Source: Nitrospinota bacterium | GTDB taxonomy: Bacteria > Tectomicrobia > Entotheonellia > J063 | Direction of reading: 5' to 3' | Assembly (NCBI GenBank): GCA_003696125.1 | Contig: RFHZ01000976.1 | Coordinates: 1 to 7,953 of the forward strand | DNA: 7,953 nucleotides | Shown here: positions 2-7,953 of the stretch, in pieces | Numbering within the stretch: position 1 is the first letter of the stretch | Layout: each line of letters opens with the position of its first letter | The notes under the pieces: generated by a model | Database searches by the model: none | What the model was told of the DNA's origin: nothing | The model's input: the letters and a program-made list of their open reading frames with translations, nothing else | Made by a program: the position numbers and the translations under genes

Positions 2-322
2 GCCTATATCGAGCGGTACGCCCATCAGCCGCTGAACGGCTATTTCGGTGTGGGGGAAGCCCTCCCCTGGCGCGAACCCTGGCTAAAGGAGGCGGCCCGT
101 TCCCTCACCATGCCGGTAGCCATCATTGCCGGGACCGAAGACGTGATGCACCGGGGAGCAGAACTGCTGCATCAACACCTGCCCCATTCTCACTTCGTCT
201 CCATCCAGAACGCACCGCACGACTCGGTCAATGCCCGGCCAGAGGCGTTCAACCAGGCGGTGCTCGACTTCCTGGAGGCGGTGGAACAGGGGAAGACGGT
301 TGCCGGCCATCGTGTCTTGTAG
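2..322 (+). CDS. Alpha/beta hydrolase, C-terminal part (5' end outside window)
   Basis: This reading frame is open from the first base of the window and stops at TAG 320-322, so only about the last 106 residues are seen. The visible part fits the C-terminal third of an alpha/beta-hydrolase fold enzyme. A strand (PVAIIAGTED) ends in the Asp usually used as the catalytic acid (codon 140-142). About 26 residues later comes the APHD motif with the likely catalytic His (codon 218-220), then a final helix (FNQAVLDFLEAVEQ). The nucleophile elbow would lie upstream and cannot be checked. The substrate is unknown: these enzymes include esterases, haloperoxidase-like proteins and C-C bond hydrolases. 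GTG at 50 is an internal codon, not the start, because the same frame reads through unbroken from base 2. Family assignment is fairly sure; function is not. Confidence 0.8.
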   Translation, partial: AYIERYAHQPLNGYFGVGEALPWREPWLKEAARSLTMPVAIIAGTEDVMHRGAELLHQHLPHSHFVSIQNAPHDSVNARPEAFNQAVLDFLEAVEQGKTVAGHRVL

Positions 323-553: not shown

Positions 554-760
554 ATGAGAACGAAAGTTACAGATCAGGGCGTGCTCATCCCTAAAAACCT
601 CCTTGAAGGCATCGAGGAGGTCGAGATCCACAAAGTGCAAAACGTCATCATCCTCGTACCTGTCAGCGCTACTGACCCGATATTTATGCTGGGAAAACAG
701 CCGATCACCGTCGATGTGGATGACGCCTCCATCAACCATGATCGCTACCTCTACGACTGA
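554..760 (+). CDS. Small AbrB-like (VapB-type) antitoxin, partner of the PIN toxin
   Basis: This 68-residue protein begins MRTKVTDQGVLIPKNLLEGI. A short N-terminal beta-rich stretch (about residues 1-38, with the V-L-I-P-K pattern) resembles the swapped-hairpin DNA-binding domain of AbrB/VapB-type antitoxins. The C-terminal half is acidic (DVDDASINHD) and ends in Tyr-Leu-Tyr-Asp, as expected of a tail that wraps round a toxin. I chose ATG 554 over the in-frame TTG at 542 because GGAG at 544-547 sits 6 bases before it. The TGA stop (758-760) overlaps the ATG of the downstream PIN gene by one base, which implies translational coupling. The partner gene is the strongest evidence for an antitoxin role; the exact family is uncertain. 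Expected role: binds and neutralises the ribonuclease, and with it may repress the operon at the repeats just upstream. Confidence 0.7.
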   Translation: MRTKVTDQGVLIPKNLLEGIEEVEIHKVQNVIILVPVSATDPIFMLGKQPITVDVDDASINHDRYLYD

Positions 761-1167
761 TGAATGCCGTATTCGTGGACACAGGCTATCTGCTCGCGCT
801 CGAAATCGCTAATGATCAGTATCATCAAGCAGCCGTGGAGCACTGGCAACGTGTGACAGCCGCGCTACCATCCTTGGTGACTACCTCCTATGTCTTCGAT
901 GAGGTGGTGACCTTTTTCAACAGCCGGGGCTATCATGCGAAGGCGGTGCAAGTGGGCTCCAGCCTCTTGCACAGCCCATCAACGCAATTGATCCACGTCG
1001 ATGAGGCGTTATTCTACGAGGGATGGGCATACTTCTTGCGACATCACGACAAAGACTACTCGTTCACGGATTGTATCTCTTTCGTGGTGATGCAGCGGTT
1101 CGGCATCACCACGGCCTTTGCTTTTGATCACCATTTCGTCCAGGCCGGTTTTACGACAGAGCCGTAG
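760..1167 (+). CDS. PIN-domain ribonuclease toxin (VapC-like)
   Basis: This is a 135-residue single PIN domain, the usual length for VapC-type toxins. The acidic metal-binding residues appear in order: Asp7 in the N-terminal strand VFVDTGYLLAL, Glu48 in TSYVFDEVVT, Asp104 in YSFTDCISF, and Asp123 in AFAFDHHF. Together they would hold the Mg2+ or Mn2+ ions used for RNA cleavage. By analogy with the family it cleaves a specific RNA (tRNA, rRNA or mRNA) when freed from its antitoxin; the target cannot be read from sequence. Its ATG overlaps the antitoxin stop (ATGA-like TGATG junction) and no Shine-Dalgarno sequence precedes it, so translation probably depends on the upstream gene. All catalytic positions are intact, so the toxin looks functional. 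The pair resembles PIN/antitoxin modules common in cyanobacteria and Chloroflexota. Confidence 0.88.
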   Translation: MNAVFVDTGYLLALEIANDQYHQAAVEHWQRVTAALPSLVTTSYVFDEVVTFFNSRGYHAKAVQVGSSLLHSPSTQLIHVDEALFYEGWAYFLRHHDKDYSFTDCISFVVMQRFGITTAFAFDHHFVQAGFTTEP

Positions 1168-1345: not shown

Positions 1346-1726
1346 TCAACTCTCTCCTCCTCCGATGGGCAATGGACGAATCCGGATCCGGCTCTCTTCG
1401 AGAATCACCACACTACCCTGTTCAACCACCTCTGCAATATTCGGTAAATTGGCTAGCAACAGGGCTGCCTGAGCGACAGGTCGACGACCCGAAGTTCTGC
1501 GAAAAAGTATTACCGATGGCTTTCGTGCCCCCTTTTGGGCAAGCAGTGTTCCGAAATCTGTGTCGGCAGAAACGATGACTCGTTCCTCCCTGATCGCACA
1601 CTCGAAGATGATTTCATCCTCGGCGGCCTGTAGACCATAATCCCGCACATGCACCGCATCGTGACTCGCCTGCCGCAACGCCTCGGCAAACTTTGGCGAT
1701 AACGCATTATCCACCAGGAATCTCAT
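1346..1726 (-). CDS. DUF5615 PIN-like toxin
   Basis: This 126-residue protein matches the DUF5615 (Mut7-C/PIN-like) pattern along its length. It begins [11 protein letters not shown] (acidic Asp6), followed by [11 protein letters not shown] (Asp29), [11 protein letters not shown] (residues 34-44), the diagnostic [14 protein letters not shown] (Asp55 and Asp57), and the C-terminal [16 protein letters not shown]. The family is regarded as the nuclease-like toxin partner of DUF433 antitoxins; biochemical knowledge is limited, so activity is inferred from the PIN-like fold. The ATG (1726-1724) lies inside the DUF433 stop region in an ATGA overlap. No ribosome binding site is visible for it, pointing to coupled translation. 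The stop codon at 1346-1348 directly abuts the stop of a short + strand frame ending at 1345. All acidic positions are present and there is no sign of decay. Confidence 0.88.
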
Positions 1727-2191: not shown

Positions 2192-3865
2192 TTACCTGCG
2201 CACCGCGGTTGCCGGGGGTGGGAACTCCTCCGGATCGATCGGGATCTCGATGATGGCCGGTTTATCGCACTGCAAGGCGGCGTTGACCGTATCACCGATC
2301 TGATCCGGATGCTCCACATAGTACCCCTGCGCACCGAAGAGTTCGGCGTACCGGTCGTAGCGGGGATTGCCGATATCCGCTCCCACATACCGGGCCTGGT
2401 AGAAATACTTCTGGTACGCCTTCTCCGAGCCCCAGCAGTTGTTGTTCATGACGATGGTGACCACGTTGATCCGGTGACGCACCGCGGTCTCCAACTCCTG
2501 CGCGTTCATCAAGAATCCACCATCCCCATGGATGGCTATGACCGGCGAATCCGGAGCACCGAGCTTGACCCCTAAGGCGACCGGGAAGGCAAAGCCCAGG
2601 CAGCCAAGGTCGAGCGGGGTAAAGAAGGTGCGGGGTAAGGAGAAGTGGAGACGGTCGTACCCATAAGCCGGGGCCGCACCGGCATCGAGGGCAATCTTGG
2701 TCTCCGGCGGGAGGACACGACGCAGCTCGGCATAGATGCGTTGCGGTTTGATAGGCGTGGCGGTGAGCTGTGCTTCTGCCTGCAGGCGGGCCTGGCGCTC
2801 CCGGCGGAGAGCCTCTGTCTCCTGCTGCCAGGCAATAGAAGACGGGGGAACCGCCTCCTGCGCAAGGAGGGGCAACAAGGCCTGTAGCGTTTCTCTGGCA
2901 TCTGCCTCGATGCCCAGCGCGACCGGATAGAGACGACCGATATCCCTGCTCTCGACATCGATCTGGATGATGCGGGTGCCGGGTTGAATATAGCGGTCAT
3001 CGTAAAAAGTGGTGAAGTGCCCCAGCCGGGAACCGATGACCAGCAGGAGATCGGCACGACGACAGGCCTGGGCCGCCTCTGGGGACCCGGCCCGACCCAG
3101 GGGACCGATATAGCGGGGATGGTGGTTGGGGACGGCGTCGTTGCGTCCATACGCCGTGATCATGGGGAGGGCGAGTTGCTCACTCAGTTGCACCACCAGA
3201 TCGTTGGCCCCAGCCCAGGTGACCCCACCTCCCACCAGGAGAAGAGGTCGTTCTGCTTCTCGTAACAGGCGCACAAGCTCTCGCAGCGCTTCTGGATGGG
3301 GAGGACGGGGATGAGAAGGACGATACCGTTCGGGTGGCAGCGGGTCCATCTCCACCTCCTGGTTGTGCACCATGTCGCGGGGAATATCGAGGAAGACCGG
3401 TCCTTTGCGACCACTCATGGCTGTGCGGAAGGCGAAGCGCAGGATCTCCGGTATCCGCTCTGGTCTGTTCACCAGGAGTGAATGCTTGGTTACCGGCCGG
3501 AAGATGTTGACCAGATCGAGTTCCTGAAAGGCGTCTCGCTGGTAGTTGGCGCTCAGGGGTCCACCGGCAATGGCCACGACCGGAGAGTGGGCCACGTACG
3601 CTCCGGCTATCCCGGTGAGCAGATTGGTCGCTCCCGGACCACTGGTCACCAGGCACACGGCTGGCCGTCCGGTGACCCGGGCCAGGCCATCAGCCATGAA
3701 GGCGGCTCCCTGTTCGTGTCGCACATTGATATAGGTTACACTGGTATCATCATAGAGCACATCGAGGATATCGAGGAAACTTGAGCCGACAATACCAAAG
3801 ATGTGACGTACCCCTTCTGCTTTGAGCAGCTCGATAACCGCTTTTCCCCCTCTTACCTTACTCAC
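2192..3865 (-). CDS. Thiamine-diphosphate enzyme, acetolactate synthase/sulfoacetaldehyde acetyltransferase type
   Basis: The protein is 557 residues from the chosen GTG start, a normal length for the family. The N-terminal PYR domain carries GIVGSSFLDIL (25-35), the catalytic Glu51 in RHEQGAAFMADG, and TSGPGATNLLTG (74-85). The central domain holds LLLVGGGVTWAG (208-219). The C-terminal PP domain has the metal-diphosphate motif GDGG (447-450) through Asn475, then CWGSEKAYQKYFY. The WG-S/A-EK segment and the FGIVGS motif recall sulfoacetaldehyde acetyltransferase (Xsc) more than true acetolactate synthase, but this is from memory of those sequences. The reaction is probably decarboxylation or condensation of a 2-oxo acid or aldehyde; the substrate is open. 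GTG 3865 is preceded by GGAGGAGG about 6 bases away and begins VSKVRGGKAV, matching family starts. An in-frame ATG at 3973 adds 36 residues of no recognisable homology. No regulatory-subunit gene follows, unlike biosynthetic ilvBN. Confidence 0.88.
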   Translation of the reverse strand: MSKVRGGKAVIELLKAEGVRHIFGIVGSSFLDILDVLYDDTSVTYINVRHEQGAAFMADGLARVTGRPAVCLVTSGPGATNLLTGIAGAYVAHSPVVAIAGGPLSANYQRDAFQELDLVNIFRPVTKHSLLVNRPERIPEILRFAFRTAMSGRKGPVFLDIPRDMVHNQEVEMDPLPPERYRPSHPRPPHPEALRELVRLLREAERPLLLVGGGVTWAGANDLVVQLSEQLALPMITAYGRNDAVPNHHPRYIGPLGRAGSPEAAQACRRADLLLVIGSRLGHFTTFYDDRYIQPGTRIIQIDVESRDIGRLYPVALGIEADARETLQALLPLLAQEAVPPSSIAWQQETEALRRERQARLQAEAQLTATPIKPQRIYAELRRVLPPETKIALDAGAAPAYGYDRLHFSLPRTFFTPLDLGCLGFAFPVALGVKLGAPDSPVIAIHGDGGFLMNAQELETAVRHRINVVTIVMNNNCWGSEKAYQKYFYQARYVGADIGNPRYDRYAELFGAQGYYVEHPDQIGDTVNAALQCDKPAIIEIPIDPEEFPPPATAVRR

Positions 3866-4078
3866 TCTCCCCCTCCTCCTGATAATATTCAACTTGATAG
3901 CTCTGTCGTGATACCATCTGGGCTGGAAACAAACGACGGAGATTCCCCCTCTTCCTGCAGGAGGCAAATGCATGCGCGATTACAGGACCAGACAATCTCC
4001 TCTAGAGTCACGGTTAAAACCGCTCCTACAGGTCGGAAAAAATCTCCCCCACCCTATCTCTGTTCCCTTGTGCCTCTC

Positions 4079-4900
4079 CTACTTCTGATGGCACTCCAGG
4101 CACAATCTGCTGCCCCAGTTATCCATCACCAGACCATTGTTCCGCTCGGAAAAAGGCTCGTGACAGGAGACACAGCTCACCTTACCTTGAATCAGTTTTA
4201 TCCGCTTGTCAAGGGTAAAAACAGGGCGGAGTCTCCCGCGGCGCCTCCTGGTCTCCTCGTAGTCTATTCCGATCGGATGGCGACCGAGATTTGTCCCGCT
4301 AAAAGAGGCGTACCGCCATAGGCCGACACTGACAACGGGAAATCGGGCTATGGCACCGTCATGACAGGACAGGCACTCCCTCGATACCGGATCGATCATG
4401 CTGGAGCCGGGGAAACTTTGCACCTTGAAGTGAGCCTTCTGGAGCGCTTCGGCATGTGTCCCGACCCTGCGGAGACGGCTACGATGACAGAGGGTACAGA
4501 AATATACCCCCGACTCCTGGTGCCGTAGCAGATAGGGATTTCCCCAGGGGGTGGGGGTTAGGGCGTGGACATCGTGGCAGGTGGAGCAGGTAATGAAACC
4601 TTCAGGAGAGAGGGGCATGTCGACAGGGACCCGGACCGAAACGGGCCGGATGCCTACTGGGTGGGATAAGGAGAGGTCGATGGAACGATGGCAGCCTGTA
4701 CAGAGTTGCGTTTCAGGAGCCACCAGAGTCCAGGCGGATTGCTCCCCATTGGGAACTGTGCGATGGCATCTGGCACACCCTTTCTCTGGAAAACGATGCG
4801 GGTTACGTACCCCTCCCTGCACCGCCGGGACGGTTAAGAGTAAGGTAAGGATGAGGTACACGATAACACATGATAGATTGCTGTTCCTCTCTGTTCCCAT
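4079..4900 (-). CDS. Exported seven-heme c-type cytochrome, paired-CXXCH type
   Basis: The protein is 273 residues with seven CXXCH heme-attachment motifs at Cys42, 67, 105, 135, 176, 243 and 267. The first two sit in GCARCH and LCTGCH. HPVGIRP, ITCSTCHDVH and NPYLLRHQE then follow the pattern of the doubled-CXXCH domain. HPIGIDYEE and KVSCVSCHEPF form a second such unit, closing with LCLECHQK. A basic N-terminus, a hydrophobic run (about 11-25) and a likely cleavage site near 26-30 form a Sec signal peptide, so it acts outside the cytoplasmic membrane. Scattered His residues (35, 80, 112, 127, 157, 208) could give bis-His ligation. It should carry electrons; no catalytic domain is seen. I chose ATG 4900 because AGGTGA precedes it and the signal peptide follows at once; the in-frame ATG at 4978 would bury the signal sequence. 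No cytochrome-maturation or partner redox gene is in the window. Confidence 0.9.
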   Translation of the reverse strand: MGTERNSNLSCVIVYLILTLLLTVPAVQGGVRNPHRFPEKGCARCHRTVPNGEQSAWTLVAPETQLCTGCHRSIDLSLSHPVGIRPVSVRVPVDMPLSPEGFITCSTCHDVHALTPTPWGNPYLLRHQESGVYFCTLCHRSRLRRVGTHAEALQKAHFKVQSFPGSSMIDPVSRECLSCHDGAIARFPVVSVGLWRYASFSGTNLGRHPIGIDYEETRRRRGRLRPVFTLDKRIKLIQGKVSCVSCHEPFSERNNGLVMDNWGSRLCLECHQK

Positions 4901-4977
4901 CTTTTCACCTGTATGAACAAGATCATGCTTTTCCCTATGACCTTCCCGATTCCCGTTCTCCTCTTTGACAAGGCCCA

Positions 4978-5160
4978 ATGCCTTCCCGCTTGTTCTATCG
5001 GCAAGGCATGAATTTTCTTAAAAGGTTTTTAAACGAGTTTCTTTTTCTTATTGTGATGTTTTTAGAGCTCTTTATGCTTTACTTTTTTGTTACACACAGG
5101 CAAAATGGGGTGCAGCCATCAACCTCCGTACACGGTTGCTTCGGGTGCAGACAAGAGTGA
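4978..5160 (+). CDS. Possible small membrane peptide (doubtful)
   Basis: This short frame could encode 60 residues from ATG 4978, or 50 from ATG 5008. It has a basic N-terminal part (LKRFLNE), one strongly hydrophobic segment rich in Phe, Leu and Val (about residues 20-38 of the longer form), then a polar tail ending in GCFGCRQE with a CxxC motif. The pattern would suit a single-pass membrane protein with the tail outside. Only a weak AAGG lies 5 bases before 4978, and nothing better precedes 5008. The hydrophobic stretch may simply reflect the T-rich DNA, because T-rich codons give Phe and Leu. I do not recognise the peptide. It is listed because nothing else explains the composition shift. 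Confidence 0.22.
   Translation: MPSRLFYRQGMNFLKRFLNEFLFLIVMFLELFMLYFFVTHRQNGVQPSTSVHGCFGCRQE
5051..5078 (+). promoter_or_regulatory. Possible sigma70-like promoter for the GGT-family gene
   Basis: TTGTGA (5051-5056) and TATGCT (5073-5078) each match 4 of 6 consensus bases and are 16 bp apart within T-rich DNA. Transcription would begin near 5085 and give a leader of roughly 215 bases, containing the nested dyads, before the ATG at 5302. The match is modest, and AT-rich DNA throws up such pairs by chance. Confidence 0.28.
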
Positions 5161-5253: not shown

Positions 5254-5301
5254 TGTCAGAGGGACAACGTAAAGAAAACAGGCTGAAGGAGAGAGAAAAA
5301 A

Positions 5302-6951
5302 ATGAAGCAAAGCAACCAGCTCTATCAGGCGCATCGTCCGGTAGTCATGGGAAAGCAGGGGATGGTCGCCACCGCCCATCCCCTTGCCTCGCAGGCCGGA
5401 CTCCGGATGCTCTTGGAGGGTGGGAATGCCATTGATGCGGCCGTGGCTGCCGCTGCCACCCTCAATGTGGTGGAACCGTACATGTCTGGGGTGGGAGGGA
5501 TCGGGGTTCTCCTCTGCTACCTGGCCCGGGAAGGTCAGATCCGGGTGTTGAATTTCAGTGGACGTGCCCCCTATGCGGCCACTCCGGACCGGTACACGCC
5601 GGAAACCAAGCAGGTGGGCCTCCGCTCTCCTTTAGTACCCGGCAACGTGGCCGGCTGGCTCACCCTCCTCGAGACGTACGGGAGCATGGAACGGAGCAGA
5701 GTCCTGGCCCCGGCAATCACCTATGCCGAGCACGGAGCACCGGTGAGTTATAAGAATCATCGCTTCATCAAGGAGAACATCCCCCTCCTCTCTCGCTTTC
5801 CCACCTCGGCACAGGTTTTTCTCCCCAACGGGAAAGCCCCCCGTCCGGGCAGTCTCTTGTCGCAGCCTGCCCTGGCCCAAAGCCTTCGCCTCATTGCCGA
5901 AGGGGGAAAGGAGGTTTTCTATCGGGGAGAGCTGGCAGAGAGGATGGTGCGCTTCGTGCAGGAGCAGGATGGACTCCTCACCTTGCAGGATCTGGCCGAT
6001 TATGAGGCCAGGTGGGAGGAACCGATCACGACCACGTATCGTGGCTACCATGTCCATGTGCCTCCCCCCAACTCGAGTGCTTTCCAGATGCTGGCTACCC
6101 TCAATATCCTGGAACAGTTCGATCTCTCTTCCCTGGGGTACGGCTCTCCCCGCCTACTCCACCTCCTCATGGAGGCGATCAAGCTGAGTGTGACCGATCG
6201 GATCAGGTACGCCGGTGATCCTGACCACACCTCCATTCCGCTGCGTGGTCTCCTCTCCAAGGAGTACGCCCTCAGCCAGCAGAGACGGATCGACTGGCAG
6301 CAGGCTTCGGTGGTCTCCGGGGAGCGGTACAGTCGTGAACCGGCTCCTGAATCCCTCCGGTCCGGTATCCCAGAAGAGTACACGGCCGGGCTGACCACCC
6401 ACCTTGCCGCTGCCGATGGAGAGGGCAACGTGGTCACGATCACGCAGACGCTGGGGAATGCGTTCGGCTGCGGTGTCCTGCTGGGGGATAGCGGGATCTT
6501 TCTGAACAACATGGCCTACTGGTTTGAGATCGATCCGGACAGTGACAGTCCCAACCTGATCGCTCCCTGGAAACGGGTCGATTTCTGTGTGGCCCCGATG
6601 CAGGTACTGCACAAAAACGCTTTTCTCTTGAGCCTGGGAACGCCGGGCAGCTATGGGATCTTGCAGACCACGGTGCAGATGCTCCTCAACCTCCTCGACT
6701 TTGGGATGAACATTCAGGAGGCGATAGAGGCTCCCCGTTTCCGGTACTACGAAGGACGACGCGTCCAGATGGAGCGTCGCTTTCCCATCGAGGTACGTAA
6801 AGCCTTACAGGAACTGGGACATCAGGTGGAGGTGATCGATGAATGGTCGTGGACGGTTGGGGGAGGACAGGGGATCTGGCGTGATCCGGAATCGGGTGTG
6901 TGGCAGGGAGGAGCCGATCCGCGGCGGGATGGCTATGCGGTCGGGTTTTGA
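5302..6951 (+). CDS. Gamma-glutamyltransferase-family Ntn hydrolase with altered substrate site
   Basis: The protein is 549 residues, collinear with GGT-family proenzymes that cleave themselves before a Thr. Landmarks are GGNAIDAAVAAAATLNVVEP (40-59), VPGNVAGW (112-119), the inferred cleavage point before Thr365 in GLTTHLAAADGEGN, and the C-terminal EAIEAPRF (473-480) and ADPRRDGYAVGF. Thr365 would be the nucleophile, with Thr383 conserved. Set against E. coli GGT as I recall it, most gamma-glutamyl-binding residues differ: Arg114 to Ser86, Asn411 to Gly385, Gln430 to Met404, Asp433 to Trp407, Ser462-Ser463 to Phe428-Cys429, and Gly484 to Ser450. The lid-loop region is about 8 residues shorter. 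No signal peptide is present, so it is probably cytoplasmic. A non-glutathione amide is the likely substrate; oxamate amidohydrolase (HpxW) and acylases are family precedents. AAGGAG lies 10 bases before the ATG. The gene converges on the permease gene with a 9-bp gap. Confidence 0.88.
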   Translation: MKQSNQLYQAHRPVVMGKQGMVATAHPLASQAGLRMLLEGGNAIDAAVAAAATLNVVEPYMSGVGGIGVLLCYLAREGQIRVLNFSGRAPYAATPDRYTPETKQVGLRSPLVPGNVAGWLTLLETYGSMERSRVLAPAITYAEHGAPVSYKNHRFIKENIPLLSRFPTSAQVFLPNGKAPRPGSLLSQPALAQSLRLIAEGGKEVFYRGELAERMVRFVQEQDGLLTLQDLADYEARWEEPITTTYRGYHVHVPPPNSSAFQMLATLNILEQFDLSSLGYGSPRLLHLLMEAIKLSVTDRIRYAGDPDHTSIPLRGLLSKEYALSQQRRIDWQQASVVSGERYSREPAPESLRSGIPEEYTAGLTTHLAAADGEGNVVTITQTLGNAFGCGVLLGDSGIFLNNMAYWFEIDPDSDSPNLIAPWKRVDFCVAPMQVLHKNAFLLSLGTPGSYGILQTTVQMLLNLLDFGMNIQEAIEAPRFRYYEGRRVQMERRFPIEVRKALQELGHQVEVIDEWSWTVGGGQGIWRDPESGVWQGGADPRRDGYAVGF

Positions 6952-6960
6952 GTCAGGTCT

Positions 6961-7800
6961 TCAGGTGCGGAGCCGGGGATCGAGGAGATCGCGCAGGCCA
7001 TCTCCCAGCAGATTGAACCCGAGTACGGTCAGCATGAGGGCCAGACCGGGGAAGACGCAGACCCAGGGCTTGACCGTGAGGTAGTTCCGTCCCTGGGCCA
7101 GCATGGTTCCCCAGCTCACCGTAGGGGGCTGGGTGCCGAAGCCGAGGAAGCTGAGCCCGGCTTCGGAGAGGATGTTCCCGGCAATGCCGATGGTGGCGGT
7201 GACGATGACCGGTGCAAAGCAGTTCGGCAAGACGTGCCTGACCAGGACACGGAGATCGCTGGCACCGGTGGCCCGTACCGCCTGGACAAAATCCCGTTCC
7301 TTGAGGGAGAGTACCTCACCCCGCACCACCCGGGCAATCGGTGTCCACTGCAGGATGCTGAGGACCACGATGACGTTGAAGAGACCGGGTTGCTGGAACA
7401 CGGCCATCAGCGCGATGGCCAGGACCAGGGAGGGGAAGGCCATGAAGGTATCGGTGATCCGCATCAGGAGGGTATCGACCTTTCCGCCGTAGAATCCGGC
7501 CAGTGTGCCCAGCGATACGCCGATGACTACGGCAAAGGCTTCCACCAGCAAGCCTACCTGTAGCGATACCCGGGCACCGTAGATCACCCGGCTCAAGACA
7601 TCCCTGCCCAGCCAGTCTGTACCAAAGGGATGGTTCCAGCGGGGAGGTTGCAGGCTCTGCCGGGTATGGACCCGGTAAGGATCATGAGGGGCGAGCCAGG
7701 GAGCCAGAAGGGCCGTCGTGATCAGGGTCAGGAGCATGACCAGACCGAGCAGGGCACTCGGGCTCTTCCTCAACCTGTGCCATATCTGGTGAGACCACAT
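6961..7800 (-). CDS. Peptide/oligopeptide ABC transporter inner-membrane permease, DppC/OppC/GsiD type
   Basis: The protein is 279 residues, typical of the C-type permease of dipeptide, oligopeptide, nickel or glutathione importers. It has an N-terminal OppC_N region with a membrane segment (about 15-37), then HPFGTDWLGRDVLSRVIYGAR (57-77), a signature of this group. Further membrane spans lie near 79-103, 118-135, 139-156, 195-220 and 246-268. The EAA loop that docks on the ATPase reads QAVRATGASDLRVLVRHVLP (173-192). It would pair with a DppB-type permease, two ATPases and a binding protein, none of which are in the window. No ATPase gene follows, since the stop lies 9 bp from the convergent GGT-family stop. 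GAGGG sits about 5 bases before the ATG at 7800. The heptamer array begins 57 bp upstream. Substrate class is inferred; the exact peptide is unknown. Confidence 0.92.
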   Translation of the reverse strand: MWSHQIWHRLRKSPSALLGLVMLLTLITTALLAPWLAPHDPYRVHTRQSLQPPRWNHPFGTDWLGRDVLSRVIYGARVSLQVGLLVEAFAVVIGVSLGTLAGFYGGKVDTLLMRITDTFMAFPSLVLAIALMAVFQQPGLFNVIVVLSILQWTPIARVVRGEVLSLKERDFVQAVRATGASDLRVLVRHVLPNCFAPVIVTATIGIAGNILSEAGLSFLGFGTQPPTVSWGTMLAQGRNYLTVKPWVCVFPGLALMLTVLGFNLLGDGLRDLLDPRLRT

Positions 7801-7856
7801 ACCATCCCTCGCCTTCCTTCAGAGTAACTGCAGAGAGGGCTGAGAACGCAAATAAT

Positions 7857-7953
7857 GAGTAATGAGTAACGAGTGATGAGTAACGAGTGATGAGTAATGA
7901 GTAATGAGTAACGAGTAATGAGTGATGAGTAATGAGTAACGAGTGATGAGTAA
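7857..7953 (+). repeat. Tandem GAGTRAY heptamer array, running off the window end
   Basis: Thirteen full 7-bp units and a 6-base partial unit lie head to tail without interruption. Only three variants occur: A = GAGTAAT, B = GAGTAAC, C = GAGTGAT. The order is A B C B C A A B A C A B C, then GAGTAA. The preceding AATAAT (7851-7856) looks like a decayed edge unit. The + strand has stops in every frame. The - strand has none in any frame and would read as a repeating heptapeptide such as ITHYSLL, so spurious genes are easily called here. Similar heptamer arrays are known between genes in cyanobacteria and some other bacteria. True length is unknown because the window ends inside it. Confidence 0.95.

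Follow-up and report, generated by a model that had tools for sequence, protein, structure and literature searches.

A GGT-family clade with a replaced donor pocket, probably an uncharacterised group of cytoplasmic amidases

The window, a stretch of 7,953 nucleotides from a genome assigned to the Nitrospinota, carries a gene of the gamma-glutamyltransferase (GGT) family on the plus strand at 5302–6951, the coordinates and strand given by an earlier sequence-only reading being correct. The gene stands alone: a gene for a multihaem c-type cytochrome with doubled CXXCH motifs (4079–4978, minus strand) lies divergent upstream, and a gene for a peptide transporter permease converges on it from downstream. 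Farther upstream, the window encodes a thiamine-diphosphate enzyme of the acetolactate synthase/sulfoacetaldehyde acetyltransferase group, which falls below every listed NCBIfam cut-off (2192–3973, minus strand), a DUF5615/PIN-like protein (1346–1726, minus strand) and a PIN-domain protein (760–1167, plus strand), both possibly toxin parts, and the C-terminal end of an alpha/beta hydrolase-like protein, recognised by eye with no Pfam match (2–322, plus strand). Positions 7840–7953, immediately upstream of the permease gene and running to the contig end, are densely packed with 7-nt direct repeats (GAGTAAT/GAGTGAT/GAGTAAC) that probably broke the assembly. The features of the GGT-family gene, its product and the adjoining permease gene are as follows, with residues lost from the E. 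coli enzyme in E. coli numbering and 'clade' denoting the 64 close relatives described below.

5286–5293, plus strand: Shine-Dalgarno-like AAGGAGAG, 8 nt 5′ of the ATG, from sequence
5302–6951, plus strand: GGT-family Ntn-hydrolase precursor, 549 amino acids (open reading frame, PF01019, TIGR00066, AlphaFold model)
5302–6393, plus strand: predicted large subunit, residues 1–364; putative cleavage before Thr365, from alignment with E. coli T391 and from solved small chains, which begin at query residue 365
5557–5559, plus strand: Ser86 for Arg114, mostly Ile, Leu, Met or Val in the clade (alignment)
6319–6327, plus strand: Gly340-Glu341-Arg342, a 'GER' specific to the clade, in the large-subunit tail (alignment; within the low-confidence model loop 340–362)
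6394–6948, plus strand: predicted small subunit, residues 365–549 (alignment; model 365–549 against E. coli 391–580)
6394–6402, plus strand: Thr365-Thr366-His367, nucleophile region (alignment)
6448–6450, plus strand: Thr383, equivalent to E. coli Thr409 (alignment)
6454–6456, plus strand: Gly385 for Asn411, 64/64 in the clade (alignment)
6511–6513, plus strand: Met404 for Gln430; Phe, Ile, Leu or Met in nearly the whole clade (alignment)
6520–6522, plus strand: Trp407 for Asp433, 64/64 in the clade (alignment)
6583–6588, plus strand: Phe428-Cys429 for Ser462-Ser463; mainly Met-Cys or Thr-Met in the clade (alignment)
6646–6651, plus strand: Gly449-Ser450, the oxyanion-hole pair; every clade member has Ser450 in place of Gly484 (alignment)
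6961–7800, minus strand: OppC/DppC-type peptide ABC transporter permease (PF00528/OppC_N, Opp4C-like), convergent with the GGT gene, with 9 bp between the stops

Full-length homology, an Ntn fold in the predicted model and a small subunit that begins with the Thr nucleophile make the protein a member of the GGT superfamily. In profile searches, PF01019 matches nearly its whole length at 474.9 bits, and the GGT equivalog TIGR00066 scores 420 bits, above its cut-off of 357.85; because the protein passes this curated model, annotation would make it an enzyme that handles glutathione. The nearest solved sequences are B. halodurans 2nlz, B. licheniformis GGT and E. coli GGT. An AlphaFold model built with 40 sequences reached a pLDDT of 90.6 and a pTM of 0.92, and is poor only at residues 1–8 and 340–362. 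The nearest solved fold is 2nlz (Z 55.4, 1.7 Å over 513), followed by B. licheniformis GGT (Z 52.4), E. coli GGT 2e0w (Z 51.9), the T. acidophilum protein (Z 50.8) and LmbA2991 (Z 48.7). With canonical bacterial GGT (E. coli Ggt and the B. subtilis and B. licheniformis enzymes; TIGR00066, MEROPS T03) the protein shares whole-length homology, the Ntn fold, the Thr nucleophile, the second Thr and the first oxyanion Gly, but it lacks R114, N411, Q430, D433, S462, S463, G484 and the signal peptide.

These correspondences come from MAFFT alignments of the window protein with K-12 ggt, taken from MG1655, and more than 100 relatives, the largest holding 207 sequences. The nucleophile region, reported as intact from sequence alone, is so: T391 aligns with T365 and T409 with T383. 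The pocket exchanges listed in that reading all hold as well (R114 to S86, N411 to G385, Q430 to M404, D433 to W407, S462 to F428, S463 to C429 and G484 to S450). Within the small subunit, the model (365–549) superposes on E. coli 391–580 with Z 15.1 and an rmsd of 1.4 Å over 178 residues, and this structural alignment agrees with the sequence-based mapping. Among the compared glutamate-pocket and oxyanion sites in the 207-sequence alignment, the sole residue retained is G483, as G449; in place of a Gly-Gly oxyanion hole, the window protein has Gly449-Ser450. The sequence-only reading had named placement of the lost Arg, Asp and Ser-Ser residues elsewhere in the protein as the finding that would count against it, and the sequence alignment places none of them elsewhere. 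Between NN and KR, the lid region is 8 residues shorter than that of E. coli, as proposed, the lengths being 20 and 28 residues rather than 21 and 29. Where the canonical donor pocket has Arg114, Asn/Glu411, Gln/Glu430, Asp433 and Ser462-Ser463, the aligned residues are thus Ser, Gly, Met, Trp and Phe-Cys. Judged from the alignment, the glutamate alpha-carbon has lost its polar cage, and the predicted pocket lining is now mainly apolar.

The same pocket recurs in a clade of 64 members, gathered by similarity and not by motif. Gly385, Trp407 and Ser450 are invariant in all 64, and the clade retains Thr365, Thr366, Gly449 and a Thr or Ser at 383. The Arg114 site holds Ile in 28, Leu in 25, Met in 4, Val in 3, Ser in 2 and Thr in 2, so that the Ser86 of the window protein is common to just 2/64; the Gln430 site holds Phe in 33, Ile in 26, Leu in 2, Met in 2 and Ser in 1. 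Arg88, put forward from sequence alone as a partial stand-in for Arg114, is not a general replacement, since this position is Arg in only 21 of the 64 members, Thr in 32 and Leu, His, Pro, Gln, Ala or Lys in the rest. The 'GER' at 340–342, found in 97–98% of the clade and a gap in nearly all other sequences, is a speculative candidate for a substrate contact. At the level of sequence, the fingerprint TTH[ST]G...Q[ST][LI]G..FG, LNN...W, GTPGS[YHF]GIL sets the clade apart.

Phylogenetic analysis gives moderate support to monophyly of the clade, which forms an exact split with support 0.85 in a FastTree of 207 sequences and has a UFBoot of 91 and an aLRT of 57 in an IQ-TREE of 53 sequences. It lies apart in the tree from canonical GGT and from the His-Thr group containing 2nlz, and these sequence comparisons distinguish it from canonical GGT as well as from LmbA and the HpxW/B. 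halodurans/extremophile type. Because the set was collected by similarity and the tree groups exactly the triad-bearing sequences, the pattern is no artefact of motif selection.

The window protein is not an isolated case. The source genome holds a second copy on contig C423 with 54% identity to the window protein, and two further relatives at about 52% identity occur in the sample of 386 genomes. In the orders to which these two belong, close relatives are present in 54/72 genomes of one and in about 29/60 of the second (28 full-length and one partial); one further relative belongs to a neighbouring family in the class of the second order, and another, at 42% identity, lies on a Roseomonas gilardii plasmid. 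To judge by marker phrases in the proteins encoded nearby, the two orders may be Poribacteria-like and Rokubacteria-like. Two window-type GGT genes stand in tandem in one genome (G512, L275:7899–11155, plus strand), and most genomes of the second order (that of G089) show a large expansion, with about 10–25 candidate GGT-family genes. The phylum of the window is represented by four other genomes, all without the clade and with only other GGT types. The host assignment is uncertain, given this absence and an estimated contamination of 8% in the bin; a binning contaminant was considered and set aside, the window's GC (0.577) and tetranucleotide correlation (0.949) being within the range of the bin's other contigs.

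Other GGT-like proteins were seen in the same set of genomes. In the source genome, contig C981 encodes another type with the pocket motifs GMAWF...KRPLNNMCP and GAPGGR, unlike the characterised enzymes compared (L133:367–2256, minus strand), and contig C965 a very divergent protein in which TSALC replaces TTH at the nucleophile, with LTPN and ASPGGD motifs (L134:1081–2772, plus strand). A genome of the window's class encodes an LmbA2991-like protein with 314 bits to 6j3a (L118:1501–3225, minus strand).

The pocket was compared with those of GGT homologues of known or proposed activity. CapD-type depolymerases are surface-anchored and have poly-glutamate activity, whereas the window protein has no signal peptide. 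The engineered E. coli acylase D433N/Y444A/G484A, in which GGT became a glutaryl-7-ACA acylase with activity up 50-fold (PMC8062742), and the class IV cephalosporin acylases differ from canonical GGT at three sites that are, by alignment, also changed in the window protein; D433N itself costs E. coli GGT its transfer activity and confers acylase activity (PMC8062742). The residues differ, however: the window protein has Ser rather than Ala at 484, no lid residue, and Trp407 rather than the Asn at Asp433 that defines class IV (PMC8062742). LmbA, Ant6 and LmbA2991 are likewise GGT-fold Ntn hydrolases, but carry out a non-glutamyl C–C cleavage, an activity known in the GGT family (PMC5519988), and the good match of the LmbA2991 structure to our model could speak for a C–C bond hydrolase of a biosynthetic pathway. 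We consider this highly improbable, and reject the LmbA type, as the LmbA2991 key-site motifs TPSGG, TRLQM, RPRTTL and GTPGGD are all missing from the window protein, which has QTLGNAFG and VDFC where TPSGG and RTT would be expected, and the gene neighbourhood does not resemble a biosynthetic cluster. An HpxW-like hydrolase of oxamate or another small oxo-acid amide had been raised by the sequence-only reading; HpxW (5hft) is a lid-less family member, and at the R114 site the HpxW/B. halodurans type has a Ser, matching Ser86. That Ser is confined to the two clade members noted above, no allantoin or oxamate pathway genes occur in the window, and HpxW, with its motifs IQSIYHEFGSG, QNRGAAF, PFHTLNP and GSMGGD, has Arg, His, Thr and Gly-Gly in its small chain (QNRG, PFHT, MGGD) against Met, Phe, Cys and Gly-Ser here. 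Membership is rejected on these pocket motifs, and this reading seems to us far-fetched. Finally, the many changed pocket residues, together with an unusual P1 residue (Leu364; Cys, His or Gln in most of the clade), might indicate an inactive pseudoenzyme or a decaying copy. The open reading frame and Thr365, Thr383 and Gly449 are intact, close relatives in three or more lineages keep the same catalytic residues, and fixation of the same replacements across the 64 members argues against chance and decay alike, making this explanation very unlikely.

The alternative with most in its favour, though in our view still unlikely, is a slow, lid-less gamma-glutamyl hydrolase resembling those of extremophiles, which would act on cytoplasmic gamma-glutamyl compounds and hold the glutamate by other contacts. 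The extremophile or intracellular type (B. halodurans 2nlz, labelled 'cephalosporin acylase', T. acidophilum 2i3o, GtGGT and HpxW 5hft, which belongs here by its Arg, His-Thr and Gly-Gly motifs) is likewise lid-less, with R114 replaced and Ser-Ser lost. Enzymes of the GtGGT/PtGGT kind, which are intracellular, lack the lid and have Arg114 changed to Ser and Ser-Ser to His-Thr, are reported to act as hydrolytic GGTs (PMC8062742); R109S B. licheniformis GGT retains 85% activity (PMC8062742); S460A and S461A, in the PLSSMXP motif, raise the activity of that enzyme (PMC6769717); and the TIGR00066 score of the window protein exceeds the cut-off. Several of the losses listed in the sequence-only reading are thus individually tolerated, and its conclusion of a cytoplasmic Ntn amidohydrolase with a non-glutathione substrate survives in respect of the nucleophile, the leaderless N terminus and the clade-wide pocket loss, but not in taking those losses as proof of a non-glutamyl substrate, since extremophile enzymes without R114, Ser-Ser and the lid are reportedly hydrolytic GGTs. 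By contrast, stronger evidence for an altered substrate comes from what the aligned clade puts in their place. In the extremophile type, the equivalents of Arg404, His428 and Thr429 are each present in 100/100 sequences and Gly-Gly in 96/100, whereas the clade has Met/Phe/Ile, Phe/Met/Thr, Cys/Met and Gly-Ser at these sites, along with the invariant Gly385 and Trp407; the window protein has M404, F428-C429 and G449-S450 where that type has Arg at Q430, His-Thr at S462-S463 and Gly-Gly. The clade thus lacks the Arg/His/Thr set and carries mainly hydrophobic residues there. In 60/64 members, moreover, R114 is replaced by Ile, Leu, Met or Val, and R114L abolishes E. coli GGT (PMC8062742). What is unusual in the clade is the combination of losses, the change of D433 to Trp and the absence of the extremophile replacement set.

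A cytoplasmic location of the enzyme is well supported by its predicted N terminus. The frame is closed by a stop five codons 5′ of the ATG, which makes a signal peptide impossible and bears out the earlier claim that there is none; a hydrophobic N-terminal stretch is found in 0/64 clade members against 12/14 canonical sequences. The leaderless N terminus makes a cytoplasmic enzyme probable.

Gene neighbourhoods in related genomes, with genes in high-GC flanks called by codon-usage scoring, suggest where a substrate might come from. In the second order, about 26 loci include upstream sequence, and at 13 of these dppA-dppB-dppC directly precede the GGT gene on the same strand; cobS-cobC are a constant part of this setting, and E1-alpha and E1-beta dehydrogenase genes also occur in some cases. 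This operon, which the GGT gene ends, suggests that the enzyme perhaps hydrolyses an imported amide. In the first order, a gene for a BMP-type binding protein directly follows the GGT gene at 5/12 loci, and CstA or an ABC ATPase lies near it at others. The link from uptake to hydrolysis is good for the one order with the operon and weak for the window, since DppC-like genes number 11–44 per genome (six genomes checked) and no specific orthology was found between the window permease and the dppC of the dppABC-GGT operons. As the permease gene is convergent and outside any operon with the GGT gene, and the source genome has about 25 DppC-like genes, their adjacency in the window may be chance. 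Literature searches found nothing relevant, either for GGT in candidate phyla or for a pairing of GGT with peptide transporters.

We therefore favour, with a probability of roughly 0.6, a cytoplasmic GGT-family Ntn amidohydrolase whose donor pocket has been rebuilt and which would hydrolyse a non-gamma-glutamyl, probably apolar, acyl amide. As in the GGT family generally, the precursor would cleave itself before Thr365; the freed Thr365 would attack an amide carbonyl held in the G449-S450 oxyanion hole, and water would resolve the resulting acyl-enzyme, the short lid presumably favouring hydrolysis over transfer. Every residue that binds the alpha-carboxylate or the alpha-amino group of gamma-glutamate has been exchanged, in most cases for a hydrophobic or small one (S/I/L86, G385, M/F/I404, W407, F/M/T428 and C/M429), so the enzyme probably prefers a less polar acyl chain or ring to gamma-glutamyl. 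A likely role would be the deacylation of an amide or peptide-like compound that enters through an ABC transporter, either Dpp/Opp-type or of another kind.

The same pocket change being fixed in relatives from several lineages, the clade probably represents an uncharacterised amidase carried in databases under the GGT label. That it forms a separate class of GGT-fold enzymes with a mainly hydrophobic pocket, deacylating a specific imported amide in several little-studied lineages, a substrate that would be novel for GGT homologues, is a more tentative proposal, to which we give slightly less than even odds. If the pocket does bind apolar acyl groups, the clade would be a natural equivalent of the GGT acylases engineered in the laboratory and could supply new amidases.
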